Position numbers and translations under genes: made by a program. Under the pieces are notes generated by a model. That model did no database searches and was not told the DNA's origin. It was given only the letters and a program-made list of their open reading frames with translations. 64,000 bases of DNA from Micromonospora sp. NBC_01813 (lineage in GTDB: Bacteria > Actinomycetota > Actinomycetes > Mycobacteriales > Micromonosporaceae): contig NZ_CP109067.1 in NCBI RefSeq assembly GCF_035917335.1, positions 6,819,001 to 6,883,000 on the forward strand, written 5' to 3'. Positions 8,716 through 53,509 of this stretch are shown piece by piece (within the stretch, counting starts at the first letter, position 1; the number at the start of each line of letters is the position of its first letter).

Positions 8716-8724
8716 ACCTTGAAG

Positions 8725-8742
8725 TGGAACACTTATGTTCCA
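8725..8742. promoter_or_regulatory. TetR operator palindrome
   Basis: Perfect inverted repeat TGGAACACTTATGTTCCA (7-base arms, 4-base spacer) between the divergent ABC exporter (start 8715) and TetR gene (start 8795). It lies only 10 bases before the exporter start, where a bound repressor would block transcription. Its symmetry and position fit a TetR-family operator; binding is inferred. Confidence 0.7.
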
Positions 8743-8794
8743 GAAGCGTCAACAAGTATTCGCTAACGGCACGTCGTACGGTAGTTTCCCGCAC

Positions 8795-9370
8795 ATGGCG
8801 GAAGCACAGCTCGGCGCGGCGGAGACGGCTACCCGGGCCCGGACCCGGCGAGCCATCCTCGACGCGGCGATCACCGCGCTGTCCCGGGACCCGGCGGCCT
8901 CCCTCGGCGACATCGCCGTCGAGGCCGGCGTCGGCCGCACCACGCTGCACCGCTACTTCCCGGAACGCTCCGACCTGATCGACGGGCTCAGCCAGCACGT
9001 GCTGGAGCAGATCGCCGGTGCCACCGACCGGGCCCGCCTCGACCAGGGCACCGCGCTCGCCGCCATCGAACGACTCTGCCAGGAGTACTTCGCCCTCGGC
9101 GACGCGCTCACCATGATCTTCAACGACCCGCAGATGACCTGCCGACCCGAGTGGAGCGAGGAGACCGTGGCCGACCGGTCGATGCTGCGGCTGATCGAAC
9201 GCGGCCACGCCGACGGCAGCATCGACCCGCAGGTCGACCCGGCCTGGGCGCAGCAGTTGCTGTGGGCGCTGCTCTACGCCGGTTGGCAGTACGTCAACGA
9301 CAACGCCGTGCCCCGCTACGAGGCGCTCAACCAGTGCCTGCGCAGTCTGCGTAAGTCCCTCGACGCTTAG
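8795..9370 (+). CDS. TetR-family transcriptional regulator
   Basis: A 191-residue protein. The N-terminal TetR helix-turn-helix is clear (ARTRRAILDAAITAL, LGDIAVEAGVGRTTLHRYF); the C-terminal ligand domain is variable, as usual. The ATG at 8795 starts the compact protein MAEAQLGAA; an upstream TTG-type extension would overlap the operator region and is not preferred. No strong ribosome site is visible before 8795, so the mRNA may be nearly leaderless. It diverges from the ABC exporter and is expected to repress it, and perhaps itself, from the palindrome at 8725-8742. Confidence 0.9.
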   Translation: MAEAQLGAAETATRARTRRAILDAAITALSRDPAASLGDIAVEAGVGRTTLHRYFPERSDLIDGLSQHVLEQIAGATDRARLDQGTALAAIERLCQEYFALGDALTMIFNDPQMTCRPEWSEETVADRSMLRLIERGHADGSIDPQVDPAWAQQLLWALLYAGWQYVNDNAVPRYEALNQCLRSLRKSLDA

Positions 9371-9429
9371 CGCGACCGCGCGCCGTACGATTCGAGACGC
9401 AAGACTCTGTCTCCAGGGAGGGAACCCAA

Positions 9430-11340
9430 TTGAGCACCGGGGTTGAGACGCGTGAGTTCCAGGCCGAGGCGCGCCAGCTCCTGCAGCTGATGGTCCATTC
9501 GATCTACTCGAACAAGGACATCTTCCTGCGGGAGTTGATCTCGAACGCCTCCGACGCGCTGGACAAACTGCGGCTGCAGGCGCTGATCGACAAGGACCTC
9601 GACGTCGACATCTCGGATCTGCACGTCGAGATCGAGGTCGACCGCGAGCGGCGGACGCTCACCGTGCGGGACAACGGCATCGGCATGTCCCGTGACGAGG
9701 TCGTCAGCCTGATCGGCACGATCGCCAAGTCCGGCACCGCCGAGCTGCTGCGCAAGCTCAAGGAGTCCAAGGACACGGCGTCCCAGGAGCTGATCGGGCA
9801 GTTCGGGGTCGGTTTCTACGCCACCTTCATGGTCGCCGACCGGGTCACCCTGCTGACCCGTCGGGCCGGCGAGACCGAGGCGACCCGCTGGGAGTCCTCC
9901 GGCGAGGGCACCTACACCATCGAGCCGGTGGACGACGCCCCGCAGGGCACCACCGTCACCCTGCATCTCAAGCCGGAAGACAAAGAAGACCAGCTCTTCG
10001 ACTACACCGACGAGTGGAAGCTCCGGGAGATCGTCAAACGCTACTCGGACTTCATCGCCTGGCCGATCCGGATGTCCACCGAGCGCCCCGGCGAGTCGGA
10101 GGGGGAGACCACCAGCGAGACGGTCACCCTCAACTCGATGAAGGCCCTGTGGGCGCGACCGCGCTCCGAGGTGACCGACGACGAGTACAAGGAGTTCTAC
10201 AAGCACGTCAGCCACGACTGGAACGACCCGCTCGACATCATCCACATGAAGGCCGAAGGCACCTTCGAGTACGAAGCGCTGCTGTTCGTTCCGGCGCAGG
10301 CGCCGTACGACCTGTTCATGCGCGACGCCAAGCGGGGCGTGCAGCTGTACGTCAAGCGCGTGTTCATCATGGACGACTGCGAAGCGCTGATCCCGGAGTA
10401 CCTGCGCTTCGTCAAGGGGGTCGTCGACGCGCAGGACCTGTCGCTGAACATCAGCCGGGAGATCCTGCAGCAGGACCGGCAGATCCAGCTGATCCGCCGC
10501 CGGCTGGTCAAGAAGGTGCTCTCCTCGGTCAAGGAGTTGATGGACAACGACGCCGAGCGCTACCGCACCTTCTGGACCCAGCTCGGCCGGGCGGTCAAGG
10601 AGGGCCTGCTCAACGACTTCGAGAACCAGCGGGCGATCCTGGACATCTCGTCGTTCGCCTCGACCCACGACCCGGAGCAGCTGACCAGCCTCGCGCAGTA
10701 CATCGAGCGGATGCCCGACGGTCAGACCGACATCTACTACATGACCGGCGAGTCCCGGACCATGATCGAGAACTCGCCGCACCTGGAGGCGTTCAAAGCC
10801 AAGGGGTACGAGGTCCTGCTGCTCACCGACCCGGTCGACGAGATGTGGGTCGCCTCGGTCACCGACTACGACGGCAAGCAGCTGCGCTCGATCGCCCAGG
10901 GTCAGGTCGACCTGGACGGCGAGGACGAGTCGAGCAAGGACCCGGAGCGGGAGCAGCGCAAGGAGCAGTACGCGCCGCTGCTGGGCTGGCTCGGCGAGAC
11001 CCTCGACGCCCACGTCAAGGAGGTACGGCTGTCCACCCGGTTGACCACCTCACCGGCGTGCCTGGTCGGCGACGCGGGCGACATGACCCCGGCGCTGGAG
11101 CGGATGTACCGGGCGATGGGGCAGGACGGGCCGAAGATCAAGCGGATCCTGGAGCTGAACCCGGCCCACCCGCTGGTCACCGGGCTGCGGGAGGCGTACG
11201 GCAGCCGGGCCGACGATCCGGCTCTCGTCGAGACCGCCGAGCTGCTGTACGGCACCGCGCTGCTCGCCGAGGGTGGCGAGCTGGACGAGCCGGCCCGGTT
11301 CGCGAAACTGCTCGCCGACCGGCTGGCCCGTACCGTCTGA
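9430..11340 (+). CDS. htpG: Molecular chaperone HtpG (Hsp90 family)
   Basis: A 636-residue protein with all Hsp90 parts: N-terminal GHKL ATPase (ELISNASDALDKLR, DNGIGMSRDEV, GTIAKSGTAELL, GQFGVGFYATFMVADRV in part), middle domain (RGVQLYVKRVFIMDD, LPLNISRE-like DLSLNISREILQ) and C-terminal dimerisation domain. It is an ATP-dependent cytosolic chaperone. The start is TTG at 9430 behind a strong GGGAGGG site. No CIRCE element is visible upstream. A perfect hairpin at 11356-11385 ends the unit. Confidence 0.97.
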   Translation: MSTGVETREFQAEARQLLQLMVHSIYSNKDIFLRELISNASDALDKLRLQALIDKDLDVDISDLHVEIEVDRERRTLTVRDNGIGMSRDEVVSLIGTIAKSGTAELLRKLKESKDTASQELIGQFGVGFYATFMVADRVTLLTRRAGETEATRWESSGEGTYTIEPVDDAPQGTTVTLHLKPEDKEDQLFDYTDEWKLREIVKRYSDFIAWPIRMSTERPGESEGETTSETVTLNSMKALWARPRSEVTDDEYKEFYKHVSHDWNDPLDIIHMKAEGTFEYEALLFVPAQAPYDLFMRDAKRGVQLYVKRVFIMDDCEALIPEYLRFVKGVVDAQDLSLNISREILQQDRQIQLIRRRLVKKVLSSVKELMDNDAERYRTFWTQLGRAVKEGLLNDFENQRAILDISSFASTHDPEQLTSLAQYIERMPDGQTDIYYMTGESRTMIENSPHLEAFKAKGYEVLLLTDPVDEMWVASVTDYDGKQLRSIAQGQVDLDGEDESSKDPEREQRKEQYAPLLGWLGETLDAHVKEVRLSTRLTTSPACLVGDAGDMTPALERMYRAMGQDGPKIKRILELNPAHPLVTGLREAYGSRADDPALVETAELLYGTALLAEGGELDEPARFAKLLADRLARTV

Positions 11341-11355
11341 CCCGAGCCGCGTCGG

Positions 11356-11385
11356 GTCCCCGGCAGGTGTCGACCTGCCGGGGAC
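11356..11385. terminator. Bidirectional terminator hairpin
   Basis: Perfect inverted repeat with 13-base arms (11356-11368, GTCCCCGGCAGGT; 11373-11385) and a GTCG loop. It lies between the convergent htpG and racemase genes and overlaps neither stop codon by more than the last base. No U-tract follows, which is usual for actinomycete hairpins. It should serve both strands. Confidence 0.75.
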
Positions 11386-12096
11386 TCAGGCGGCGACCGT
11401 CTGGTCGGCCGCGATGGCCTGCTCGACGGCGGCGGTGACGTGCAGCAGTGTGGTCGGGAAGAGCAGCACCGCGGTGTCCTGCTGGCGGATCAGCAGCTCG
11501 ATCTCGGTGCAGCCGAGGATCACTCCCTGCGCGCCGGCACCGATCAGCCGGTCGATCGCCTTCAGGTAGGCGGCGCGGGACGACTCGGTGACCACGCCGA
11601 GGCAGAGCTCGTCGTAGATCACCTTGTGGATCATCTTGCGGTCGTCGGCCTCCGGCACCAGCACGGTCAGCCCGTGGCCGGCCAACCGGTCGCGCAGAAA
11701 ATCCTGCTCCATGGTGAAGGCGGTGCCGAGCAGCCCGACGGTGTGCAGCCCGTGCCGGCGGATCTCGGCGGCGGTCACGTCGGCGATGTGCAGCAGCGGG
11801 ATCCGTACCGCGTCGGCGATCTGGTCGGCGACCTTGTGCATGGTGTTGGTGCACAGCAGCAACAGGTCGGCACCGGCGGCCTCGACCCGGCGGGCGGCGT
11901 CGGCGAGCACCCGCCCGGCGTCGTCCCACTCACCGGCGGCCTGCATACGTTCGATGTCGGCGAAGTCGACCGAGTAGAGCAGGCACTGGGCTGAATGGTG
12001 GCCGCCGCGCCGCTCGCGTACCAACTCGTTGGCGAGCCGGTAGTAGTGCGCGCTGCTTTCCCAGCTCATACCGCCGAGCATGCCGATCGTCAACAT
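11386..12096 (-). CDS. Aspartate/glutamate racemase-family protein
   Basis: A 236-residue protein of the Asp/Glu/hydantoin racemase family. It begins MLTIGMLGGMSWESSAHYYR; the two catalytic cysteine motifs are LLLCTNTMHK (first Cys) and ILGCTEIELL (second Cys). It fits the YgeA/aspartate racemase subgroup that interconverts L- and D-amino acids by the two-base cysteine mechanism. Both cysteines are present, so it should be active; the exact amino acid is unknown. It follows the F420-type oxidoreductase gene by 38 bases on the same strand, so they may be cotranscribed. Confidence 0.87.
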   Translation of the reverse strand: MLTIGMLGGMSWESSAHYYRLANELVRERRGGHHSAQCLLYSVDFADIERMQAAGEWDDAGRVLADAARRVEAAGADLLLLCTNTMHKVADQIADAVRIPLLHIADVTAAEIRRHGLHTVGLLGTAFTMEQDFLRDRLAGHGLTVLVPEADDRKMIHKVIYDELCLGVVTESSRAAYLKAIDRLIGAGAQGVILGCTEIELLIRQQDTAVLLFPTTLLHVTAAVEQAIAADQTVAA

Positions 12097-12134
12097 GTGG
12101 TCATCGTGTCACAGGTGGTCATCGGTAGGGTGGG

Positions 12135-13007
12135 TTACAGCTCGCGCATCCGGGGCAGCACCTGCTCACCGACCTGGCTCACCCAACCGGCCGGGTCGGG
12201 GCCGTTCGGGTTCACCCAGACCTTGTTCACGCCGAGCGCGGCCAGCCGCCGCATCGCCGCGAGGAACCCGTCGACGTCGGCGAGCGGATCCATCGACGTG
12301 ACGACCGTCTTGTCGATCTCGGCGGGATCGCGGCCCTCGGCGTCGCAGTGCCGGGCCAGAACCGCCAGCTTGTGGGCGACCACGTCCGGGTCGTCGGTGG
12401 TCAGGTTGCAGGCGTCGGCGTACCGGGCCACCAACCGTAGGGTCTTCTTCTCACCCGTACCGCCGATCAGCACCGGCGGGCCGCCCGGCTGCAGCGGCCC
12501 TGGCTCACAGAGTGTCTCGGCGAGCTGGTAGTGCCGGCCGACGTACCCGCCGTTGTCGGGTCCCCACATCTGCCGGCAGATCTGCAGGGTCTCCTCGAGG
12601 CGTTCGTAGCGCTGCGTCAGCGGCGGGAACGGCACCCCGAGCCCGAGATGCTCCCGCTCGTACCAGGCGGCACCGATTCCGAGCAGCGCCCGGCCGCCGG
12701 AGAGCACGTCCAGGGTCGCCACCGTCTTCGCGAGCAGCCCCGGGTGGCGGTAGGTGACCCCGGTGACGAGCAGACCGAGGGTCAGCCGCTCGGTCAGCCC
12801 GGCGAGGTAACCCAGCGTGGTGTAGCCCTCCAGCATCGGATCGTCGACGGCCAGGTGTGGCAGTTCCATCTGGAACCAGTGGTCCATGACGGTGAGCGTG
12901 CTGAACCCGGCCTGGTCCGCCGCGCGCGCGGTCGCCGCCAGCGTGCCGGCCAACGCGGGCGCGCCGCCGGGCAGGTCGAAGCGGTACACGTGCAGCGCAA
13001 TCTCCAT
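12135..13007 (-). CDS. LLM-class (F420-dependent type) oxidoreductase
   Basis: A 290-residue TIM-barrel protein of the luciferase-like family. Typical segments are ARAADQAGFSTLTVMDHWFQ, LTERLTLGLLVTGVTYRHPGLLAK in part, LSGGRALLGIGAAWYEREHLGLG in part, and PPVLIGGTGEKKTLRLVARYADACN in part. Actinomycete members of this group mostly use coenzyme F420 rather than FMN. The ATG at 13007 starts directly at MEIALHVYRF; an extension upstream is not supported by a ribosome site. Substrate not predictable. Confidence 0.85.
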   Translation of the reverse strand: MEIALHVYRFDLPGGAPALAGTLAATARAADQAGFSTLTVMDHWFQMELPHLAVDDPMLEGYTTLGYLAGLTERLTLGLLVTGVTYRHPGLLAKTVATLDVLSGGRALLGIGAAWYEREHLGLGVPFPPLTQRYERLEETLQICRQMWGPDNGGYVGRHYQLAETLCEPGPLQPGGPPVLIGGTGEKKTLRLVARYADACNLTTDDPDVVAHKLAVLARHCDAEGRDPAEIDKTVVTSMDPLADVDGFLAAMRRLAALGVNKVWVNPNGPDPAGWVSQVGEQVLPRMREL

Positions 13008-13117
13008 CGGGTCAGCATATGCCGGCCCGACGTCCACGACGGGGCACCGGCCGAGGACGGGGTGACCTATTGTGGACTCATCTGTCGCCACGGGGCCCCG
13101 CTGAGGGAGTGGTCGTG

Positions 13118-15589
13118 ATGCGCGTACCGGCTCGGACCCTGCGGCGCACCGCCGCTGCGACGCTGGCCGCCGCGCTGGCCTTCGGCGCCCCGGCGACCGC
13201 GACGACGACGGCCGGCGCGGCGGATGCCTCCGCTGGTCAGTGGCTCGTCGCCGACCTGGGCATTCCCACCGCGAAGGTCGACCGGGCCGAGGTGGTCGGC
13301 GCGGTCACCGTCGACGACCACCCGGGCGGAGCGCAGCAGCCGTACGTGTTCACGCTCGTCGACGGCGCGCTCTACCTGACGCTGGTCACCGGTGGCCGCA
13401 GCTGGGTGCCGCTCGGTGTGCCGCCGAGCGGCAGCCCGATCGCCGGCGGCGTCGGCGCGATCACCGTACGGGACAGCCTGGCGTCGCCGGCCAGGCCCCA
13501 CGTTTTCCTCCGCACCGCCGACGGTGAGCTGTGGAGTCGCTGGTGGGACGGGGCCCGCTGGAACTGGACGGGCCACGGCGCGCCACCGGGGGCGGCCGTC
13601 ACCAACGGGGTCGGGGTCGTCGCCGTCCAGGACAACCCGTCCGCGGCGCAGCGGCCGTACGTCTTCGTCCTCGGCACCGGTGGGCAACTCTGGCTGAGCT
13701 GGTGGACCGGTGCCCGGTGGCAGTGGGACGGTCTCGGCGCCCCCGACGTGGCCCACCCACAGAACACCACCGGGGTCGGAGTCGGCCTGATTCAGCTGGC
13801 CCCGGAGAACCCGCAGTGGCCGCAGGCGTTCGTCGTCACCGGCGCGGGGGAGGTGTGGCGCAACGGCTGGGACGGCAGCGGTTGGCGGTGGACCGACCAC
13901 GGGGTGGGCCCGGCCGGTCCGCAGGTCACCGTCGGGCTCGACGTGACCGCCGCCGCCGGGCCAGCTGGCGCGACGGTCGCACCGATCGCCTTCACCGGCG
14001 TCGCCTACGGCCTCTACTCGTTGGCGTATCCGACCGTCGGCCAGCGGTGGACCTGGGCCGACCAGGACCTGCCCTACTACGACGTAGAGCTGCCGGCGCC
14101 GGCCGGAGCGGTCACCGTCACCGACAGCCCGACCAGCGCTTCCCGGCCGTACCTGTTCATCTGCGACGCCATCACGGCCGGCCCGCTCTGGTCGAACTGG
14201 TGGGACGGCAGCCGCTGGCAGTGGACCGAACTGCCGGGTACCAAGGCGGCACCGGGCTGGCCGCGCTGCGGCGCGGCGACGACGGTCCGCGACACGGCGT
14301 CCGGCCCACAGCGACCCTTCGTCTACTACTGGTCACCGGGCGCCGACGACGACCAGGTCGGCCACCTGATGGTCAGCTGGTGGGTGCCGACCACAGACCC
14401 GGCCCCGGGACCCGGAGCAGACCGGCAGTGGCATCTCACGCCGATCGGCAATCCGGTGCCCGACGCGCAGACGGCCCAGGTCGTCGGCGCGCTCGCCGTC
14501 GACGACCAACCGGGCGGGCAGCAACGACCGGCGATCTTCAACCTGCTCGACGGGCAGCTGTACGGCACCGAACTGGTCGACGGCCAGTGGCGGTGGACCC
14601 GGCACGGCAGACCGCCCGGCACGACGGACGTGTCAGCGGCGGGAGTGCTCACCGTGCGCGACGGAGCCGACTCGGCGGCCCGGCCGTACGTCTTTCTCGT
14701 CGCCGACGACCAGCTCTGGTGCCGATGGTGGGACGGTGCCCGCTGGCTGTGGAGCAACATCGGCGCCCCGCCGGAGCATCGTGACCTGCGTTCACTCGGG
14801 GTCGTCGCCGTGCGGGACGGCCCCGGCGCGCCACAACGGCCGTACGTCTTCGTGTCGGCGGCGAGCCGGTCGGGGACGGAGCACATCTGGTCGGCCTGGT
14901 GGGCCGGCCTGGGCTGGCAGTGGTCCGACCACGGCAGTCCACCGCAGGTCGCCGACCAGTGGCACGCGATGCCGGTCGGTGCGGCGATCATGCGGTACGC
15001 GGCCGACGCCCCGGAATTCCCGCAACTGTTCCTGATCGAGCCGTACCACCGGGTGTGGCAGCTCGGCTGGGACGGCTCGCGCTGGTCGTGGACCGACCGG
15101 GGCAGCCCGGGCGACGACCTGACCGGTCTGGGGGTCACCACGACCGACGACGGCGGGTTCAATGGGCTGATCAGCCCCTGGGTGTTCGTCGGGCAGTGGG
15201 ACCACGGGGTCTACGCGATGTCGTACGCCGAGAACGGCCCGTGGCCCTGGGCCGACCATCATGGCCCGGCGAAGCAGATCAAGGCACCGGCACCCGCCGG
15301 GCTGGTCACCGTGCGGGACCGGCCGGGCGGCATTCCACGTCCGTACCTCTTCGTCTGCGACCACCTGCGGATCGGCGGGGCGATCGCCACGAACCTGGCC
15401 GCCGGGGACGGCAGATGGTCCTGGTCGGAGCAGGCCGGCACCCGGGCGGTGCCGGGTCAGCCGCGCTGCGGGGACGCCGTCGCCATCCAGGACGCCGGAA
15501 TCGGCCCGCAGCGGCCGTACCTGTTCTACTGGTCGCCGCGCGAACCGGCGCTCCAGCCCGACCAGCTCATGGTCAACTGGTGGCAGTGA
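13118..15589 (+). CDS. Secreted protein with two tandem seven-bladed beta-propellers (PLL-lectin-like)
   Basis: An 823-residue protein with a Sec signal peptide (about 1-40; RRTAAATLAAALAFGAPATA, cleavage near AGAADA). The rest is built of repeated units of 50-60 residues with the pattern V-x-D-x-P..RPYVF...LW..WWDGARWxWTDHG. Seven units can be counted in residues about 45-430 and seven more in 440-823, each set ending in a truncated unit (LMVSWW and LMVNWW). This resembles the seven-bladed PLL/PHL lectins that bind fucose or O-methylated sugars. The two halves align unit for unit, showing internal duplication. A GAGGGAG ribosome site precedes the ATG. Sugar binding is inference; no enzyme motif is visible. 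Confidence 0.75.
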   Translation: MRVPARTLRRTAAATLAAALAFGAPATATTTAGAADASAGQWLVADLGIPTAKVDRAEVVGAVTVDDHPGGAQQPYVFTLVDGALYLTLVTGGRSWVPLGVPPSGSPIAGGVGAITVRDSLASPARPHVFLRTADGELWSRWWDGARWNWTGHGAPPGAAVTNGVGVVAVQDNPSAAQRPYVFVLGTGGQLWLSWWTGARWQWDGLGAPDVAHPQNTTGVGVGLIQLAPENPQWPQAFVVTGAGEVWRNGWDGSGWRWTDHGVGPAGPQVTVGLDVTAAAGPAGATVAPIAFTGVAYGLYSLAYPTVGQRWTWADQDLPYYDVELPAPAGAVTVTDSPTSASRPYLFICDAITAGPLWSNWWDGSRWQWTELPGTKAAPGWPRCGAATTVRDTASGPQRPFVYYWSPGADDDQVGHLMVSWWVPTTDPAPGPGADRQWHLTPIGNPVPDAQTAQVVGALAVDDQPGGQQRPAIFNLLDGQLYGTELVDGQWRWTRHGRPPGTTDVSAAGVLTVRDGADSAARPYVFLVADDQLWCRWWDGARWLWSNIGAPPEHRDLRSLGVVAVRDGPGAPQRPYVFVSAASRSGTEHIWSAWWAGLGWQWSDHGSPPQVADQWHAMPVGAAIMRYAADAPEFPQLFLIEPYHRVWQLGWDGSRWSWTDRGSPGDDLTGLGVTTTDDGGFNGLISPWVFVGQWDHGVYAMSYAENGPWPWADHHGPAKQIKAPAPAGLVTVRDRPGGIPRPYLFVCDHLRIGGAIATNLAAGDGRWSWSEQAGTRAVPGQPRCGDAVAIQDAGIGPQRPYLFYWSPREPALQPDQLMVNWWQ

Positions 15590-44690: not shown

Positions 44691-44713
44691 TGATGGACCT
44701 CAGGGCCCGGTGA

Positions 44714-46561
44714 TCAGGCGACGGTGCAGGGTGCCCCGTTCAGGGTGAACGCGGTCGGCTCGGCGGTGCCGGCGCCGGTGCCGTTGAACCCGATGTCCGC
44801 CGTCTGCTGCGGCAGGAGCGTCGAGTTCCACGACAGCGAGGTCGCGGTGACGTTCTGGCCGCTGGTGCCGTAGATGGCCGACCAGCCGCTGCCGAAGCTG
44901 TGACCGCTGGGCAGGGTGAAGGCCAAGGTCCAGCCGTTGATCGTGCTGGTGCCGGTGTTCGTGATGGTGATGTTGCTGGTGAACGTCGAGCCACCGCTGT
45001 AGATCGCGTACGTCACCTGGCAGGTCCCCGTCGACGTCGACGTCGTGACAGTAGCGATTGGGGAGTACGGCGACAGGTTGCCGGCGGCGTCCCTGGCCCG
45101 AACCCGGAACTGGTAGGCGGTCCCGGCGGTCAGCCCGGTCGCGGCGAACGAGTTCGTCGCCGAGGTGCCGGCCAGCGCGAACGAGCCGCCACTCGGGGCC
45201 CGCTCGATGTCGTAGCTGACCACACCGACGTTGTCGGTGGATGCCGCCCAGGTGAGCGTGGCCGAGGTCGAGGTGATGTTCGAGGCCGCCGGGGTGCCGG
45301 GGGTCGACGGCGCGACGGTGTCGGTCGGCGTGCTGCCCGGGTCGGCGTACATCAGGCGGTTCGGCGACCCGGCGCCGATATTGGTCAGTACGTTGGTGGT
45401 CGCGGCGAGCAGCAGTGCCCCTTTGGCCTGTGCCTTGGTCGCGCTCGGGTTGGCTTCCCAGTAGCGGGCCAACCAGCCGACCACGTGTGGAGTGGCCATC
45501 GAGGTGCCGGACCAGCCGGTGGCAACCGCGTTGTCGCCGGACCTGCCGGCCGAGGTGATGTTGTCCCCGGGGGCGAAAATGTCGATGCAGGAGCCGAAGT
45601 TCGAGCTGGACCACCGGCTGTCGGAGACGGTGCTCGCGCCCACCACGACGCCGTTCGGCGACCGCGGATTGTTGCCGCAGGCGTCACCGCTGTTGTTTCC
45701 GGCGGCGAACACTGCCAGGACCCCGGCGGTGATCATGCTCTCCACGGCCGCGTTCACCTCGGAGCCGTAACCGCCCAGACTGAGGTTCGCCACGGAGCGG
45801 GGGCCAGCGTTGATCGTGACCCAGTCCAGGCCCTCGATCAGGTTGGCGTTGGTGCCGCCATTGAAACAATCCAACACGCGTACATCCCGGAGTTGGACAT
45901 CCTTGGCGACGCCGTACGCCGCGCCGCCGATGGTGCCGGAAACGTGCGTACCGTGTCCGTGGCAGTCACCCGGGCTGTTGCCGTCGTTGACCGCGTCGTA
46001 GGAGAACTGCGCCCGGGTGCCGAAATCGACGTGCGTCGTACGGATCCCGCTGTCCAGAACATAGACGGTGGTCCCGGTGCCGTCGGTGTCGTAGCTGAAC
46101 GACTGGTTGAGCGGGAGGTTCCGCTGGTCCACCCGATCCAGGCCCCACGACGGAGGGTTGGGCTGGGTGGTGGCGCCACCGGCCGCCGGGGCCGGCTCGA
46201 TCGCCTGGACGCGCGAGTCGGCGCGTACGTAGGCCACGTTGGGGTTGGCGCGCACCGCATCGAGACCGCTGGTGGTCAGCTTCGCGGAGAAGCCACGCAG
46301 CACCCGTGAGTACCGGTGGACCTCCCGACCACCGGCCCGCTCGGCGACCGCAGCGGGGTCGTTGGCCGCGCCGCCGATGACCGGTTGATCCTTGACGACG
46401 ACGATATAGCCACCATTCGGTACGCCGCCCTCGGCAGGTAACAGGGGGGCGAGTGCGGTTGTCGGCTGGGCCAGCGCCGGCGTGGCCCCGGAAACGATCA
46501 GAACTGCGGAAGCTGCGGCCGTTACGATTGCATGACGACGATAGCGAAATCGCGTGAACAT
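44714..46561 (-). CDS. Secreted S8 subtilisin-like protease with FnIII and CBM2 domains
   Basis: A 615-residue protein: signal peptide (about 1-32), I9 propeptide (about 48-118), S8 catalytic domain (about 135-400) with Asp in VYVLDSGIRTTH, His in DCHGHGTHVSG and Ser in GWSGTSMATPHVVG, then an FnIII domain (about 418-505) and a C-terminal family 2 cellulose-binding module (about 510-613; ITNTGTSTINGWTLAFTLPSG in part, with Trp residues and an outer Cys pair). The ATG at 46561 is preferred over a GTG at 46585 because AGGAGGG lies between them. It should be exported and bind insoluble polysaccharide while degrading protein. Confidence 0.92.
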   Translation of the reverse strand: MFTRFRYRRHAIVTAAASAVLIVSGATPALAQPTTALAPLLPAEGGVPNGGYIVVVKDQPVIGGAANDPAAVAERAGGREVHRYSRVLRGFSAKLTTSGLDAVRANPNVAYVRADSRVQAIEPAPAAGGATTQPNPPSWGLDRVDQRNLPLNQSFSYDTDGTGTTVYVLDSGIRTTHVDFGTRAQFSYDAVNDGNSPGDCHGHGTHVSGTIGGAAYGVAKDVQLRDVRVLDCFNGGTNANLIEGLDWVTINAGPRSVANLSLGGYGSEVNAAVESMITAGVLAVFAAGNNSGDACGNNPRSPNGVVVGASTVSDSRWSSSNFGSCIDIFAPGDNITSAGRSGDNAVATGWSGTSMATPHVVGWLARYWEANPSATKAQAKGALLLAATTNVLTNIGAGSPNRLMYADPGSTPTDTVAPSTPGTPAASNITSTSATLTWAASTDNVGVVSYDIERAPSGGSFALAGTSATNSFAATGLTAGTAYQFRVRARDAAGNLSPYSPIATVTTSTSTGTCQVTYAIYSGGSTFTSNITITNTGTSTINGWTLAFTLPSGHSFGSGWSAIYGTSGQNVTATSLSWNSTLLPQQTADIGFNGTGAGTAEPTAFTLNGAPCTVA

Positions 46562-47037
46562 GGGAGAGACTGCCCTCCTGGGCACGGTGAATCTTGAACT
46601 ACCGTGGATTAGGCGGTGCGCCCGGCTCGGCAGTCGCCGGGGTCACCGGGCGCTGCGGCCGGGCAGAGCGCTCGGCCCCGCCGATTGCAATTGGAGCACG
46701 CGTCCACCTGTCCGGCCATACCTCGATTATTGGCAACATCAATGAACGATGTTAAGCATGGGGTGTGGCCAGGAGTTGTTCACGGGGCTGTAAAAATGGC
46801 CTGCCTGGGTGATTGCTCTCACTTGTCGGATCACTGATGATCAAGGTACGTGTGACAATTTCTCCTAAGCGGGATGATCCGTTTTGCCGGGACGAACCAT
46901 CCCCTTTGGTGACGGTCGGCGCGCCGGCTGGGTGTCGGCGACCGACGCCGCGTCAGCGGTAGGGTCGGCAGCGGCAGGTGTGAACCTGTGACCCACCGGA
47001 CGCTGCGGACGGACGTTGGTAGTGAAGGGAGCCGCCG
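46562..47037. other. Non-coding divergent gap at the start of the accessory region
   Basis: 476 bases without a supportable gene, less GC-rich than the flanks around 46720-46880. It should hold the promoters of the S8 protease (minus) and the AAA ATPase (plus). A small inverted repeat AACATC/GATGTT (46735-46740, 46748-46753) lies in the AT-rich part. No clear -35/-10 pair is singled out. Confidence 0.5.
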
Positions 47038-48228
47038 ATGAACGCGCTTGATCCGACGACGCCGTTCGTCCGGCGGGTGCGGGTGCGGGGCTTCCGGTCG
47101 CTCGCCGGCTGTGACGTGACGCTGGGCCCGCTGACCGTACTGCTGGGGTTCAACGCGTCCGGAAAGTCGAACTTCCTCGACGTACTGCGGTTTGTGGCGG
47201 ATGCGCTGAACGGCTCGGCGGCGCAGGCGGTGGCCGACCGGGGCGGACTCGGCGCGCTGCTGCACCGGGGGCCGGACGGCACGGTGGAGTCATTCGAGAT
47301 CCGGCTCGACCTGGCGTTGCCGCCCCAGCAGGTGGGAGAAGATCCGATTCCGGCGACGTACGGCTTCGAGGTCGCGCAGGACCCGCAGGGCGAGCTACCG
47401 CTGCTGGTGCGCGGTGAGGCCGCGACAATCGGGATGCCCGACGGTGAGCTGCGGTTGCCGCTGGACCCGGGCACCGATCGCAGCATGCGGCTGCGGCTGC
47501 CGGCGTCGGTGATCCGCGAGGACGACCCACAAGGCGTGCTGGAGTCCCGGCTGCGGGCGATGACCTTCTACGAGCTGGACTCGACCGCGTTGCGAGCGTT
47601 GGACAAACAGTTGCTGCCCGGTGGGCAACTCGGCAGGACCGGTCATTTCCTCGGCTCGGTGCTGGGTGCGCTGGGCCGGGAGGACCCGGTCGGCAAGGAG
47701 CGGTTGGACAGCTACCTCGGGGCGCTGGTGCCGAACGCGCTCGGGGCGGACGAGCGGGTCGAGGGGCGCTACTCGACGGTGCAGGCCCGGTTCCGGGCCG
47801 GGGCGGGCGATGGCGAGGAGATCTTTCTGCGGGAGTCGCTGTCGGAGGGGACGCTGCTCGCGGCCGGGGTGCTGACGGCGTTGTTCCAGCCGGCGGCGTT
47901 CACCGGACGGATCCCATTGATTGGCATCGAGGAGCCGGAGACCGCGCTGCACCCGGCCGGCGTGGGCGCTATGTACGAGGCGTTGGACGACGCTGCGCAG
48001 CGGACCCAGGTGATCGTCACCAGTCAAAGCTCGGAGCTACTGGACAACGAATACGTGAAACTGGAACACGTTCGTGCGGTCGCTAATGTGGACGGCGTAA
48101 CGTACGTCGGAGAGATCGACGCCGCTGGCCGCGCCATCGTGGACAAAGAGCTGATGACCCTCAGCGAATTGCACCGCAGTGGGCAGATGCTGCCCGCCCA
48201 GGTGGGCTATCCAGCGCCGGAGCATTGA
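47038..48228 (+). CDS. AAA ATPase of the OLD/RecF-like type (putative defence ATPase)
   Basis: A 396-residue SMC/ABC-type ATPase. N-terminal VRVRGFRSLAGCDVTLGPLTVLLGFNASGKSNFLDVL contains Walker A GFNASGKSN (about 38-46; quoted here in part). Walker B is LIGIEEPETALHP near 298-310, followed by QVIVTSQSSELLD. The middle is a long beta/helical insertion. This architecture is shared by overcoming-lysogeny proteins, PARIS AriA and other phage-defence ATPases that work with a TOPRIM partner. A DUF4276-like TOPRIM-type gene follows 16 bases later, which supports the defence idea. ATG at 47038; GGAGCCGCCG precedes it. Confidence 0.85.
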   Translation: MNALDPTTPFVRRVRVRGFRSLAGCDVTLGPLTVLLGFNASGKSNFLDVLRFVADALNGSAAQAVADRGGLGALLHRGPDGTVESFEIRLDLALPPQQVGEDPIPATYGFEVAQDPQGELPLLVRGEAATIGMPDGELRLPLDPGTDRSMRLRLPASVIREDDPQGVLESRLRAMTFYELDSTALRALDKQLLPGGQLGRTGHFLGSVLGALGREDPVGKERLDSYLGALVPNALGADERVEGRYSTVQARFRAGAGDGEEIFLRESLSEGTLLAAGVLTALFQPAAFTGRIPLIGIEEPETALHPAGVGAMYEALDDAAQRTQVIVTSQSSELLDNEYVKLEHVRAVANVDGVTYVGEIDAAGRAIVDKELMTLSELHRSGQMLPAQVGYPAPEH

Positions 48229-48244
48229 CGAAGGAGCGAGGCGC

Positions 48245-48835
48245 ATGACCCTGGTCCGCATCGCGACCGTGGTCGAGGGCCAGGGCGAGGTCGCCGCGAT
48301 GCCGGTGCTGCTGCGCCGACTGGCACAGCAGATCAACCCTCAGCTGTACGTCGAATCGCCGCGCCCGCACCGAGTTGCCCGAGGCACCTTGCTACGTGCC
48401 GGGGGAGTGGAGAACGCGGTTGCCACCCTGGTCGAGCAGGTCGGCCCGTCGGCCGGCATCCTGATGGTGGTCGACGCAGACGACGACTGCCCCGCGAAGC
48501 TCGGCCCGGCGCTCGTTGAGCGGGCACGCCGGACCAGGTCGGACGTGAGCACCGCCGCCGTGATCGCCAACCGGGAGTTCGAGGCGTGGTTCCTGGCGGC
48601 GGCACCGTCGCTGGCCGGCCAGCGTGGGCTGGCGGATCCGCTGACCCGGCCGGCCGACCCGGAGGTGCCTCGGGACTGCAAAGGCTGGCTGAGCGCCAAC
48701 CGGGTCGACGGTCGCGCCTACAAACCGGCGAGCGACCAGGCGGCGCTGGCCGCCCTCTTCGACCTGGCGATGGCCCGCGAGCACTCCCCGTCCTTCGACA
48801 AACTCTGGCGCGACTTGACCATGCTGCTCAACTGA
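48245..48835 (+). CDS. DUF4276-like TOPRIM-type protein
   Basis: A 196-residue protein with the features of DUF4276: TVVEGQGEVAAMPVLLRRL (Glu11), ILMVVDADDDCPAKLG (Asp77, Asp79), VIANREFEAWFLAAAPSL (Glu111/Glu113) and a C-terminal FDKLWRDL. The Glu...DxD order is that of a TOPRIM fold, suggesting a Mg-dependent nuclease or nuclease-like effector. Members are commonly encoded after an AAA ATPase, as here. The ATG at 48245 follows AAGGAGCGAGGCGC and is 16 bases after the ATPase stop, so they form one transcription unit. Confidence 0.8.
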   Translation: MTLVRIATVVEGQGEVAAMPVLLRRLAQQINPQLYVESPRPHRVARGTLLRAGGVENAVATLVEQVGPSAGILMVVDADDDCPAKLGPALVERARRTRSDVSTAAVIANREFEAWFLAAAPSLAGQRGLADPLTRPADPEVPRDCKGWLSANRVDGRAYKPASDQAALAALFDLAMAREHSPSFDKLWRDLTMLLN

Positions 48836-48858: not shown

Positions 48859-49299
48859 TCACCGATCAGACTGATTAACGATCTGCTCTGCTTCCAGGAG
48901 CAGACTGTCGAGCTGTTCATCGGTCAGCTCGGCGTCCAACACCAGCTTGAAGAGCAACTGCCCCTGGATCTCGGCGATGATGCCGACATCGAGCCCGTCA
49001 ACGATCTCGTCCACGTCGGGCATCTCCATGTCGAGCATCGCGTACATCACCGCCTCCGCCTCCCGGGCAGGCAGGTTCCGACCCTCGGCCAGGGTCGCCC
49101 TCGCCTCGGCGACGAAGCGGATGATCTCTTCCGGGCTCCGTTGCTCGGCGAACCGCTGCCGCGCGGCGATGTAGCAGGCGTAACCGATCGTCGCTACCGG
49201 AGTGCCCTTTCCTTGGGCTTCGAGCTTCTCCAGGTACGAGTTGTAAGACTCCCAGTCCCGACGGAGAAGCGCTCGGACTAGCTTGCTTTCGTCTTCCAT
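48859..49299 (-). CDS. Hypothetical acidic helical protein (immunity-like)
   Basis: A 146-residue, Glu/Asp-rich all-helical protein without membrane segments: ALLRRDWESYNSYLEKLEAQG, EIIRFVAEARATLAEGRNL, DVDEIVDGLDVG. It starts 2 bases after the stop of the 213-residue membrane-segment protein, with AAAGGA in the overlap region, so both are made together. Small acidic last genes of this kind are typical of immunity proteins in toxin cassettes, but the family is not recognised and this is inference. Confidence 0.6.
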   Translation of the reverse strand: MEDESKLVRALLRRDWESYNSYLEKLEAQGKGTPVATIGYACYIAARQRFAEQRSPEEIIRFVAEARATLAEGRNLPAREAEAVMYAMLDMEMPDVDEIVDGLDVGIIAEIQGQLLFKLVLDAELTDEQLDSLLLEAEQIVNQSDR

Positions 49300-49301
49300 C
49301 T

Positions 49302-49943
49302 TTATCCTTTGCTTTCCTTCTTATCGACCCGTGCTGTTTGCCAAATTCTGGATGCCACCTCGGCCCCCTTGATCCCGACAAGCGCGATCGTGATAGCAGC
49401 GATCAAGGCGTCACCGGCTGACGTACCTGGGGGATGGGTAGGCCGGAGGACAGGCTCCACAGGGCGGCTGACTGCTACGCCACCCGACCCGCCAGCGGCG
49501 TCTTGGAACGTCTCCGCCAACTTCTTGAGGTGTTGGAAGCCATCGTCGGCGCTTCGGACCTGGTGCACCCGCCCCATCAGCTTGCTTGACCGAGAGCCTT
49601 TGCCAGTGGAGTCTGCCAAGAGCTTCTCGCCGGACGGCATGCCGCCGATTTCGGAGGTTCGGGACGGGACGGAGCCGGGTGCGATGCGGTTGGCGTACTC
49701 GGAGATCTCGGTTGCTGCTTCGGCGATGAGCCGGGCGACCTTGCCGGACTTCGCGGCGGCCTCGCTGGCCCGGGCGAGAGCTGTGGTGGCGTGGTTGCTG
49801 TCTGCGCCCTCGGTCGCGGTCTCGTAGTGCTGGAGGCCGTTCGCGGCTTGCTTCTGTGCGTCTTTGGCGTTGACGGCGGCGCCGTCGAGGTCGTTGAGGA
49901 TCTGCCGCAGCACTGCGACGACGTCACCGACGCTGCCGCTCAC
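49302..49943 (-). CDS. Hypothetical helical protein with C-terminal hydrophobic segment
   Basis: A 213-residue protein. The first 90 residues are an Ala-rich helical hairpin like the two small proteins encoded before it (VVAVLRQILNDLDGAAVNAKDAQKQAANGLQHYE in part). The middle (SGEKLLADSTGKGSRSSKLMGRVHQV) is basic and polar, and a hydrophobic stretch DALIAAITIALVGIKGAEVA lies near 182-200. GTG at 49943 overlaps the preceding stop (GTGA). The layout (helical N-terminus plus different C-terminus) recalls WXG/LXG-type exported effectors; no catalytic motif is visible. Confidence 0.6.
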   Translation of the reverse strand: MSGSVGDVVAVLRQILNDLDGAAVNAKDAQKQAANGLQHYETATEGADSNHATTALARASEAAAKSGKVARLIAEAATEISEYANRIAPGSVPSRTSEIGGMPSGEKLLADSTGKGSRSSKLMGRVHQVRSADDGFQHLKKLAETFQDAAGGSGGVAVSRPVEPVLRPTHPPGTSAGDALIAAITIALVGIKGAEVASRIWQTARVDKKESKG

Positions 49944-50200
49944 CCGAGGGCCTTCGCGTACTCCTCGGCACTGCCGGTGCTGTCCTTGATTCTGTCGAGT
50001 ACCAACTCGCCTTCGCGGTCGGCCTCGCGCAGCCGGTGGTGCGCGCCCGTGACGTGGGGGTGCTGGCTATCGGTGAGGACCGCGATGGCGGCGACGTGGC
50101 AGGACCTGACGGTTTCCCGTACGGAGTGGATGGTTGCCGCTGCCGACCGCAAATCGTCGGTCCCCTCGCGTAGCTGGCCCTTGACCTCGTCGACGCTCAT
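49940..50200 (-). CDS. Small helical WXG100-sized protein
   Basis: An 86-residue protein made of two predicted helices: VDEVKGQLREGTDDLRSAAATIHSV in part, and READREGELVLDRIKDSTGSAEEYAKALG in part. Size and Glu/Ala/Gln pattern fit the WXG100-like or DUF6244-like helical proteins common in Micromonosporaceae; no WXG motif is present. It is coupled to the genes on either side (5-base gap upstream, GTGA overlap downstream). Confidence 0.6.
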   Translation of the reverse strand: MSVDEVKGQLREGTDDLRSAAATIHSVRETVRSCHVAAIAVLTDSQHPHVTGAHHRLREADREGELVLDRIKDSTGSAEEYAKALG

Positions 50201-50205
50201 CGTCG

Positions 50206-50469
50206 CTACCCGAGGATACCGGCGTACCGGCGGGTTGCCTCGCCTGCGCCCTGCATGAGGGTGGCGGCTTCTTCCAGTTGCTTCTTGCTCTGTTCGCAGC
50301 GGCTGATCGCTTCACTGACCAGCGGGTGCGCGGTACCGGCGGCGACGGCTTGCAGTTGGGTGAGCATCCGGTCCAGGGCATCCGCCGACGCCCTGAGCTG
50401 TTGAAGCGAGGTGGAGCCCTGCTCGGCGGCCTGGGCCAAGCCGGCCTTGACCTCCTGGATACTGGCCAC
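50206..50469 (-). CDS. Small helical WXG100-sized protein, first of cassette
   Basis: An 87-residue two-helix protein: IQEVKAGLAQAAEQGSTSLQQL, a short HPLVSEAI turn, then EQSKKQLEEAATLMQGAGEATRRYAG in part. It resembles the following 86-residue protein, including the shared HP turn and the C-terminal YA(G/K)-x-LG end, so the two are paralogues that may pair. Start is GTG at 50469 behind GGGGAGAATCTG. It begins the four-gene minus-strand cassette. Confidence 0.62.
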   Translation of the reverse strand: MASIQEVKAGLAQAAEQGSTSLQQLRASADALDRMLTQLQAVAAGTAHPLVSEAISRCEQSKKQLEEAATLMQGAGEATRRYAGILG

Positions 50470-50587: not shown

Positions 50588-51229
50588 TCAGTTCAGTAGC
50601 CGCTCGGCCCAGTAGATTTGCCTGTCGGGGCCGATGCTGATCAGGGCGACCATGAGATCGTCGACGGCGGCGGGAGCGGACGCGACCGCGAACTCCGGTG
50701 ATGTCTCCGGGCGGGCCGGGTACAGGACGAAGGAGTACGTCACCGGTGCGGCGTCCACTGACGTGACGATGACGACGCTGCCGGAAGTGTAGGAGCCGCC
50801 GTGGACCTCACGTGCGCCGACGCCCTGCAGCCAGGGGTAGCGCTCTTCGACGGCGTTGAGCACACCGTCGGATCCTGTCCCGACCTGGTCCGGTCGATTC
50901 GACGTGGTGGCGATGAACCCCGGCAGGGTGCGGGTGCGTGTGTCGACCACCGCGATGATGAGCATCGCGCCGGGCTCCGCTTGCGGTGGCGGCGTCCACG
51001 CGACCTGGCCGAGGAAGATCTGCGCGCCCTCGCCGGTAGCTTCCAGCAGTCGGCCGCCGAAAGCTGCGTCTGCCCTCGCCTGGTCGACCAGGCGCAGGGT
51101 CGCGGTCGCTTTCAAAACCTCCGGCCCGTACGGCGACCGCTGGTGCCACCACCAACCGGCGGCTCCAGCCACCACGACTACGACGGCTACGGCAGCCGCG
51201 CCCAAGGTCAGCGCTCGTCGATGCCCCAT
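50588..51229 (-). CDS. Membrane-anchored hypothetical protein
   Basis: A 213-residue protein with one N-terminal membrane segment (LGAAAVAVVVVVAGAAGWWW, about 8-28) and an extracytoplasmic beta-rich domain (AMLIIAVVDTRTRTLPGFIATT, TYSFVLYPARPE). No domain recognised. The ATG at 51229 starts the basic MGHRRAL just before the anchor; a longer version would be Cys-rich and is unlikely. It is 118 bases upstream of the helical cassette on the same strand. Confidence 0.6.
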   Translation of the reverse strand: MGHRRALTLGAAAVAVVVVVAGAAGWWWHQRSPYGPEVLKATATLRLVDQARADAAFGGRLLEATGEGAQIFLGQVAWTPPPQAEPGAMLIIAVVDTRTRTLPGFIATTSNRPDQVGTGSDGVLNAVEERYPWLQGVGAREVHGGSYTSGSVVIVTSVDAAPVTYSFVLYPARPETSPEFAVASAPAAVDDLMVALISIGPDRQIYWAERLLN

Positions 51230-51319
51230 GCCGGTAGTACAGCACACCGTAGCCATAACTTGGGACGGCCGACGTGGGCTTGTGCAGCACGACTAGACTC
51301 GCGGAAGGACCTTCTCTTG

Positions 51320-51978: not shown

Positions 51979-53509
51979 CAATGCCGTTCAGATAGAGGTG
52001 TCTGGGCAGGCCAGGTGCGGTGTGGGTGGGGCGGGGTGACGGGTGATCCGATCGGTCGGGCGTTTGACGCGGTAGGAGTTGTGGCGGGCGCGTTTGACGA
52101 CGCGGGGGCAGGTCCGGTGTCGGCGGGGCGGGTTGGGCTGGTGGCGGATCTCGGTGAGCGCGTCGGTCAGGGCCTCGGAAAGGTCCTCAGGGGGTGATGG
52201 CCGCCTGGTCGGTGACCTGGCGGCGCACGACGCGGAGGCCTTTGATGAACGACATGCGGTCCGGGTCGTAGCCGGCGGGGTCGGCGGCGTCCAGCAGGAG
52301 AGCACGGATGGCGTAGTGGGCGAGTAGCAGTCCCCACATCTGTTGTTCGACCAGGTCCGGGGTCTTCGAACGGAGGATCTCACCGCGTCCGCGCAGGTCG
52401 GTCTTGATCTCGTCGAGGGCGGATTCCTCTTCCCAGCGCTGGTGGTACGCCTCGGCCAGGGTGAGGGCGTCGATGTCGTGCGGGTCGGTGACGGTGGTGA
52501 TCACCACGATCAGGTCACCGTCGGGGTTGCGGTCCGGGACGGTGTACTCGACCACCCGCACGAGGCGGGCCAGCTCGGCGGGAACCTGGTGGCCGGCTCT
52601 GGCCTGTTCGGCCAGCCTCGCCCGACGGGCGGCGCTCAGCCCGGGGGCGTAGATCAGCGCGTGGTAGGAGCCGTCCGCAAGCCAGTTCAGGTGCCCGACC
52701 GACACCGACGCGCCGATGCGCCAGGCCAGGTCCGCGCCGGTGGCCGCGTACCGGTTGAACAGGTCGTAGGAGTACAGGCCGGCGTCGGCCATCACCAGCA
52801 TGCCCGGCCCGACCGTGCCGGTGAGGTCGGCGGCCAGGGTCCGTTCCCCGGTACGGCACCCGCCGAGGACCGCGCCGACGATGGCGTGGCTGCCGCACTC
52901 GGCCACAGCGGCGACGTGCAGTTTCGGATACGCCGACGCTTTCGGCCCCGAGCCCAACCGGCCGAACCGTTGGGCGTTGTCCGGGGTGTCGGCCACGTCG
53001 AAGCTGGTCGCGTCGATCGCCATCAGCCGGCGCCGGCCGATGAAGGCACCTTTCGTGCCCGGACCGGCCAGGGGCACCGCGGCCCGCTCGAACAACGCTT
53101 TCATCGGCTCGGGCCCGAGTCGCTGCCGGGCCTGGGTGATCGCGGACTTGGTCGGGACCTGCCAGTCGTCGTCCCACGAGCCGAGTTTGCGCAGGTTACC
53201 GACCAGCCGGCGCATCACCTCGTCATACGACTCGGCGAAGAACAACCCCATCGCGATCACGTACCGGACCATCACGTGCGCCGGTAGCCGCCGCGAGCGT
53301 TTCTCCCGCCGCCCCGTGCGGTTGAGGACCTCTTCCAGCAGGTCACGGCCGAACCGGGCCGACACCACACCCAACCCGATATGGTCGGTCAACCGACCCT
53401 GCGGCAGCTGCTCCACCGATGACGTCACGGCCAGCCACCGTACCGGCCTCCACAATCGACGTCAGCTCACCACGCCGACCTCAACCCGCTCCCTATCTGA
53501 ACGGCATTG
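51979..53509. mobile_element. IS4-family insertion sequence (1531 bp)
   Basis: Bounded by perfect 17-base inverted repeats CAATGCCGTTCAGATAG (51979-51995) and its complement (53493-53509), with identity continuing in part beyond. It is flanked by the 10-base direct repeat GGCCAAGATG. It encodes one DDE transposase on the minus strand; about 190 bases at the left end are non-coding. Intact ends, flanks and transposase suggest a recent and possibly active element. It splits the PH-like gene. Confidence 0.93.
52187..53428 (-). CDS. IS4-family transposase
   Basis: A 413-residue DDE transposase from the GTG at 53428 (a TTG at 53455 would add nine residues). Helical N-terminus (LTDHIGLGVVSARFGRDLLEEVL in part) then the RNase-H-like core: first Asp in MAIDATSFDV, second Asp in VMADAGLYS, and Glu in YHQRWEEESALDEIK. 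That last segment fits the IS4 YREK signature exactly (Y-2-R-3-E-6-K). All catalytic residues are present, so it appears functional. Confidence 0.94.
   Translation of the reverse strand: MTSSVEQLPQGRLTDHIGLGVVSARFGRDLLEEVLNRTGRREKRSRRLPAHVMVRYVIAMGLFFAESYDEVMRRLVGNLRKLGSWDDDWQVPTKSAITQARQRLGPEPMKALFERAAVPLAGPGTKGAFIGRRRLMAIDATSFDVADTPDNAQRFGRLGSGPKASAYPKLHVAAVAECGSHAIVGAVLGGCRTGERTLAADLTGTVGPGMLVMADAGLYSYDLFNRYAATGADLAWRIGASVSVGHLNWLADGSYHALIYAPGLSAARRARLAEQARAGHQVPAELARLVRVVEYTVPDRNPDGDLIVVITTVTDPHDIDALTLAEAYHQRWEEESALDEIKTDLRGRGEILRSKTPDLVEQQMWGLLLAHYAIRALLLDAADPAGYDPDRMSFIKGLRVVRRQVTDQAAITP

Follow-up and report, generated by a model that had tools for sequence, protein, structure and literature searches.

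A HEC-01-type gene pair in Micromonospora: a candidate two-gene defence module of an ABC ATPase and a probable TOPRIM nuclease

The chromosome of Micromonospora sp. NBC_01813 carries, within the 64,000-nucleotide stretch analysed here (contig NZ_CP109067.1, positions 6,819,001 to 6,883,000; hereafter the window, whose own numbering is used), two adjacent genes that an initial annotation had put forward as a candidate phage defence system. Gene A (HEC-01A-like; 47038-48228, plus strand, ATG start) encodes a 396 amino acid (aa) ATP-binding cassette (ABC) ATPase of the SMC/Rad50/PtuA/OLD type, and gene B (HEC-01B-like; 48245-48835, plus strand, ATG start) encodes a 196 aa DUF4276 protein that is probably a two-metal nuclease of the TOPRIM type. 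The spacing between them is exactly 16 bases, and these coordinates, together with the Pfam matches described below, bear out the layout first noted of an ATPase gene followed by a DUF4276-like gene. The G+C content at the three codon positions (0.74/0.46/0.86 in A, 0.75/0.51/0.89 in B) is as expected of real genes in a window of 70% G+C, indicating that A and B are true genes. Both are full-length open frames that retain the conserved acidic and Walker residues. Relative to the copy in another genome of the genus (G060; genomes are labelled G and loci L), A has a ratio of nonsynonymous to synonymous substitution rates (dN/dS) of 0.14 and B one of 0.22, so both genes are under purifying selection.

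Protein A matches Pfam AAA_21 with 77 bits (cut-off 27), and its structure model (predicted local distance difference test, pLDDT, 92.6) is an ABC ATPase of the SMC/Rad50/PtuA class. We take its motifs to be a Walker A at about residues 37-45, a signature S269-x-G271-T272, a Walker B at E298-E299 and a switch position at Q330. The switch histidine of ABC ATPases is replaced by glutamine (residue 330) in 25 of 76 A proteins, that of the window included. The top PDB sequence match is an OLD protein (6p74); no OLD or GajA chain appears among the 50 matches listed for the fold, and no TOPRIM family is among the Pfam matches of the 396 aa protein. The proposal that A is an OLD/AriA-type ABC ATPase is supported.

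Protein B matches Pfam DUF4276 (PF14103) with 47.6 bits (cut-off 30.2) over positions 1-191 of the 192-position profile, with no DUF4435 match in Pfam at E-values up to 1. Its structure model (pLDDT 95.5) is an alpha/beta domain. A search of genome contigs returned 81 relatives of B, of which 80 loci were kept, and across these 80 the acidic residues are highly conserved: E11 in 80, D77 in 79, D79 in 73, and E111 and E113 in 79 each. The initial annotation had listed these five positions and missed E15, which is kept in 78 of the 80 and is D in the other two; the key residues are thus E11, E15, D77, D79, E111, E113 and K146. In the model, E11 follows strand 2-10 and D77/D79 close strand 70-77, so that B presents the TOPRIM acidic pattern of a glutamate after strand 1 and a DxD after a later strand, with E15 and E111/E113 as further ligands. 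In Bp OLD the metal-site residues are E400/E404, D455/D457 and T506/E508 (PMC6755086), and the spacing of E11/E15, D77/D79 and E111/E113 equals theirs. This conserved acid pattern with Bp OLD spacing supports the TOPRIM-type reading of B, which is a probable metal-dependent, two-metal TOPRIM nuclease. A word search of the paper collection consulted here found DUF4276 in no paper.

It had been stated that the pair matches no full known system. This was wrong, for both proteins fit PADLOC models of HEC-01 nearly end to end. The best PADLOC-DB match of A is HEC-01A (PDLC04178, E 3.9e-116, residues 7-388 against model positions 5-384 of 399), and that of B is HEC-01B (PDLC04196, E 1.7e-74, residues 1-195 against 1-192 of 197). 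The PADLOC rule for HEC-01 presumably requires both genes together, and in the window they lie adjacent on one strand, as in the HEC-01 layout. The initial annotation had named assignment of the pair to a named system as an outcome that would count against it, and the HEC-01A and HEC-01B matches are such an assignment. Judged by these matches, the pair is a further copy of an already catalogued candidate and not a new kind of immunity. HEC-01 is reportedly from a preprint by Payne and colleagues (2024), an origin inferred from the HEC name. HEC stands for Hma-embedded candidate. Several HECs, HEC-06 among them, are reported to have been shown antiviral (PMC12988326), and HEC-01 is listed among the systems found in Desulfovibrio piger (PMC12724379). 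The window pair resembles HEC-01 in that both models are matched by adjacent, co-directional genes and that Hma operons, like those of other defence systems, harbour its relatives.

Other named systems fit less well. The AriA, GajA, Old and MAD3 models of PADLOC match A many orders of magnitude worse than HEC-01A: AriA reaches E 2.4e-20, and GajA and Old are weak, with best values of 2.7e-14 and 2.5e-13. The earlier view that the pair is neither PARIS nor Gabija holds. Membership in PARIS, whose AriB we take to be of the DUF4435 family, was rejected because B hits DUF4276 without a DUF4435 match, and membership in Gabija because A is a 396 aa protein without a TOPRIM Pfam match and no helicase is among the flanking genes scanned. 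The pair shares with OLD and GajA the joining of an ABC ATPase to TOPRIM chemistry, but here the two are on separate proteins encoded by separate genes, unlike the ATPase-TOPRIM fusion of the OLD nuclease. Also rejected were MAD3 of MADS, whose NCBIfam model NF047739 gave 62.7 bits where its cut-off is 420, and the retron Eco8 effector, whose NCBIfam match falls similarly far short. The pair differs from the Septu/PtuA system of retron Ec78 in that none of the window's flanking genes that were scanned encodes a reverse transcriptase, and PtuB, unlike B, is an HNH-type nuclease.

The two genes travel together. With four loci from further related genomes added, 84 loci were available, and in 75 of them A and B (more than 300 and more than 165 residues aligned, respectively) are immediate neighbours with unchanged order and a shared strand, with an overlap of 4 bases the commonest arrangement and a range of -22 to +136; in one of the 75, L040, A is in two frames. 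The nine others comprise three contig ends (L069, L073, L081), four broken loci (L038, L046, L052, L091), L030, in which A is too divergent for the 300-residue cut-off, and L085. A search from the A side (E 1e-35) found A in 8 of 394 genomes of the class, the window's own included, and B sequence lies directly downstream in all seven other loci; matches are partial or piecewise for the end of B in L136, for both genes in L140 and for A in L141. Over 75 rows, the distances among A proteins and those among B proteins correlate with r 0.77, whereas none of 1000 permutations exceeded 0.15. The pairing is close to obligate. Where it is disturbed, A is present with a broken or missing B in G105, G114, L046 and L091, both genes are incomplete in L038, and a rule that B always decays first was rejected on L040 and L141, in which A is broken and B whole or nearly so. 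Alignment A2 was made without L040 and L091, and structure alignments A3 and A4 without the rows from further related genomes and some near-duplicates.

In L085 (10043-10609, Sphaerotilus mobilis) an orphan B, N-terminally truncated and without its VEG motif, is an apparent relic; it is flanked by PurB-like and PyrF-like genes (names by eye).

Relatives are rare. Of 300 genomes in the family to which the window belongs, 8 carry B, its own included (E 1e-5); B was also found in 3 of 72,556 plasmid records, all from Streptomyces, and in 1 of 50,697 phage records; viral contigs, in a scan limited to three degenerate patterns, gave one locus, so that few phage-borne copies were found. One of the plasmid relatives is separated by two small genes from a gene for an AAA family ATPase, behind which stands one for an ATP-dependent helicase; by annotation only, these two look like Gabija. 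A DUF4435 search hit 1 of 246 genomes. The window's own genome holds a second HEC-01 pair of another subfamily (L002, G000:C1:3230577-3234080), with a 463 aa A (HEC-01A PDLC04184, E 6.4e-195) and a 210 aa B (HEC-01B PDLC04210, E 1.5e-87), which adjoins a gatB-like gene (name by eye). A third HEC-01A homologue (L004, 403 aa, PDLC04183, E 4e-144) lies near G000:C1:3357682-3357942; the open frame downstream has B-resembling acidic motifs by eye and falls outside the Pfam DUF4276 matches of the genome.

The neighbourhoods of the relatives point to defence. Using tblastn with named neighbours as seeds, we found that 21 of the 80 loci have the pair within a known defence operon or immediately beside one: type I restriction-modification in nine (L017, L023, L024, L027-L029, L031-L033), DISARM in seven (L030, L039, L041, L043, L060, L081, L091), a type III methylase in three (L057, L070, L078; the evidence is the upstream methylase only), Wadjet in one (L061) and Hma in one (L084). 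In L027, genes for two type I methylases and for a specificity subunit lie upstream of the pair and one for a type I restriction subunit lies downstream; in L024 the restriction gene is 5 kb more distant. All seven DISARM loci have the pair immediately 5′ of DrmA (as in L030 and L060, where DrmA follows), and four have DrmMI upstream (before the pair in L039). The pair stands between JetA and JetB with JetC in L061, between HmaB and HmaC in L084, and between a type III methylase and a UvrD-like helicase in L078. Not among the 21 are L055, with a DRT gene just upstream, L076 and L082, each with an upstream gene for a PDC-S68-like helicase, and L065, which has a type I restriction subunit on the opposite strand. 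L060 has a short DrmA-like piece directly upstream of the pair in addition to the full DrmA downstream (8376-8621 and 10603-14025), perhaps an insertion trace.

A wider scan took up to two of the nearest called genes on each side at 60 of the 80 loci (221 genes), leaving aside 12 near-duplicate loci, a further 8 in which the contig ended or B was broken, and called genes of less than 70 aa. At E 1e-15 these neighbours matched 137 (110 genes) and 168 (111 genes) PADLOC families and the control genes 35 (108 genes, from 12 arbitrary stretches in three genomes of the window's family), in a comparison that tallies families, not genes, and whose control genes are not phylum-matched to the case loci. 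Among the 25 control families listed, mad3 was matched by four genes and each of the other 24 by one. The initial annotation held that a lack of enrichment near defence genes in other genomes would speak against a defence role; such enrichment was found, in the 21 of 80 loci, and the position of relatives in or against defence operons supports the idea of a defence-associated module.

The split between embedded and other loci requires at least 8 changes on a 76-row tree of joined A and B and 7 on a careful 72-row tree. L030 and L091 are in neither, and the careful tree is also without the long-branched L056, L047 and L092 and without L081, which has no complete A. Placing the nine type I rows in one clade was rejected by the approximately unbiased (AU) test (p-AU 6.4e-5), the group having been named after the quick tree and before the careful one. 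Thus, judging from the change counts and the rejected clade, lodging in defence operons has happened several times.

Within the genus, the site of the window pair is bounded on the left by a subtilase gene (44711-46825) and on the right by a gene spanning 50588-51256, and was compared in seven genomes. The pair is intact in two, the window and G060. G105 has it with B internally deleted and frame-shifted, G114 has A with a stop near the C terminus (the last few residues gone) and no B, and it is absent at the site in the remaining three (G034, G079, G093); searched in full at E 1e-5, the genomes G034, G079, G093 and G114 gave no B at all. The pair is accessory in the genus, and the differing occupancy confirms that it stands in a variable region, as had been proposed. 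Its DNA identity to the window is 92.4% in G060 and 90.6-92.1% in G105. Left flanks in G060 are 81.8-87.5% identical; in G105 the long flanking blocks are at about 82% and shorter ones at 75-95%. On the right-hand side, both genomes have some blocks with 92-93% identity. Set against the flanks, the identity of the pair suggests its recent transfer.

The two genes, their families and catalytic patterns, the near-obligate pairing and co-evolution, the defence neighbourhoods of the relatives and the accessory status were all computed directly. We consider it likely that these two chromosomal genes form a defence module of the HEC-01 type, similar to PARIS, in which A is a sensor or scaffold controlling the nuclease B. 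In PARIS, a ring of AriA holds AriB, and phage Ocr or Arn releases AriB, with cleavage of tRNA-Lys as the result (PMC11455837). From this analogy we infer a complex of A and B, a trigger, a nuclease activity of B with its substrate, and an abortive outcome. A would sense infection as an ATP-dependent ABC sensor and scaffold, and B would be a metal-dependent TOPRIM nuclease that A holds inactive or that awaits activation by A. Infection would change the state of A, B would then cut DNA or tRNA with two metal ions, and this cutting would halt the phage at the expense of the cell.

Besides the composition of the control described above, several observations weigh against a defence module of this kind. 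None of the five operon types was recognised in 59 of the 80 loci, and the window copy itself, which differs in this from HEC-01, was not seen inside a recognised defence operon. When further neighbours were scanned singly, 8 of 10 were without a PADLOC match at E 1e-20, as were 2 of 10 in another single-gene scan at E 1e-15. At the sequence level B has no match in PDB: the single sequence found none, nor did a profile searched at E up to 10. A profile of 29 rows, including the apparently misplaced fragments L147 and L149, gave a probability of 5% against the OLD TOPRIM, the alignment covering no more than the VEG stretch. When folds were compared, the OLD TOPRIM tied with maleate isomerase and PH0156.

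A plain toxin-antitoxin or addiction module, with one protein as toxin and the other as antidote, would persist without any role in phage defence. The two-gene layout with its common 4-base overlap in relatives would suit this, Pfam AAA_21 is named after a putative AbiEii toxin, and PARIS itself has been described as such a module (PMC11455837). A, however, survives without an intact B in G105, G114, L046 and L091 and is hence hardly a toxin that needs B as its antidote; this does not speak against the variant with B as toxin and A as antidote. Repeated placement in defence operons and absence from the site in three of the seven genus genomes fit defence better, and we regard the toxin-antitoxin explanation as unlikely.

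The window copy could also be a relic, decaying or inert, that a mobile segment has brought along, since B is lost or broken in two of the four genus carriers (G105 and G114) and the pair lies in a variable segment with an insertion sequence (IS) 3.35 kb away. The fully open window genes, their conserved acidic and Walker residues and the dN/dS values against G060 make this very improbable. Less probable still is a role in repairing DNA or maintaining the chromosome, with A as a relative of RecF, SMC and Rad50 and B as an accessory nuclease. This kinship of A notwithstanding, the pair is rare and patchy (the 8 of 300 family genomes for B and 8 of 394 class genomes for A), it is absent or damaged at the site in five of the seven genus genomes, and its relatives sit among restriction genes.

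Further features lie in or near the variable segment. Alignment to the pair-less G034 site and to the G060 copy places the left junction of the segment at about 46835-46947, within an upstream stretch (46830-47037) that is the presumed operon leader. Immediately downstream of the pair, in the same segment, lies a cassette of small genes on the minus strand (48859-50469; 146, 213, 86 and 87 aa), and an IS4-type transposase gene (52187-53455) lies 3.35 kb downstream. Of the claim that the pair is next to an IS and a toxin-like cassette, the cassette is an immediate neighbour but the IS is not. PADLOC gave no match for the 146 and 213 aa proteins, the two scanned, and blastn no cassette match at the site in G034, G079 or G093; the cassette also occurs in G114, near the B-less A. 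It was rejected as a third component because, among loci with clustered neighbours (B was not placed in 20 loci), it lies beside the pair only in L024, where partial kin of the cassette follow the pair in the other orientation (L024:10698-12342, Micromonospora endophytica). In G114 about 2.5 kb of foreign-looking DNA stands in place of B (L119, reverse strand, about 8008-10556) and holds a 213 aa open frame whose codon G+C is low and flat. Large RHS-repeat-like proteins (by eye) are encoded just past the variable segment in G060 (L095:13998-19901) and G105 (L096:11534-13420). No tRNA was found within the window. Possibly the variable segment serves as a hotspot where toxin and defence cassettes accumulate.

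A more specific role is conceivable for HEC-01 of this subfamily, though we propose it only tentatively: that of a restriction guard, in which A would detect phage anti-restriction proteins or a failed modification-dependent host defence and then release or activate B. The strategy would be that of PARIS, arrived at through another effector family, and would account for the repeated occurrence of relatives beside methylase, specificity or restriction genes of several unrelated systems. An apparently nameless pair thus becomes a named, testable candidate. DUF4276 gains a concrete chemical hypothesis, a two-metal TOPRIM nuclease with E11/E15, D77/D79 and E111/E113 as ligands, and because the relatives recur next to genes for modification and restriction, the guard idea can be tested directly.
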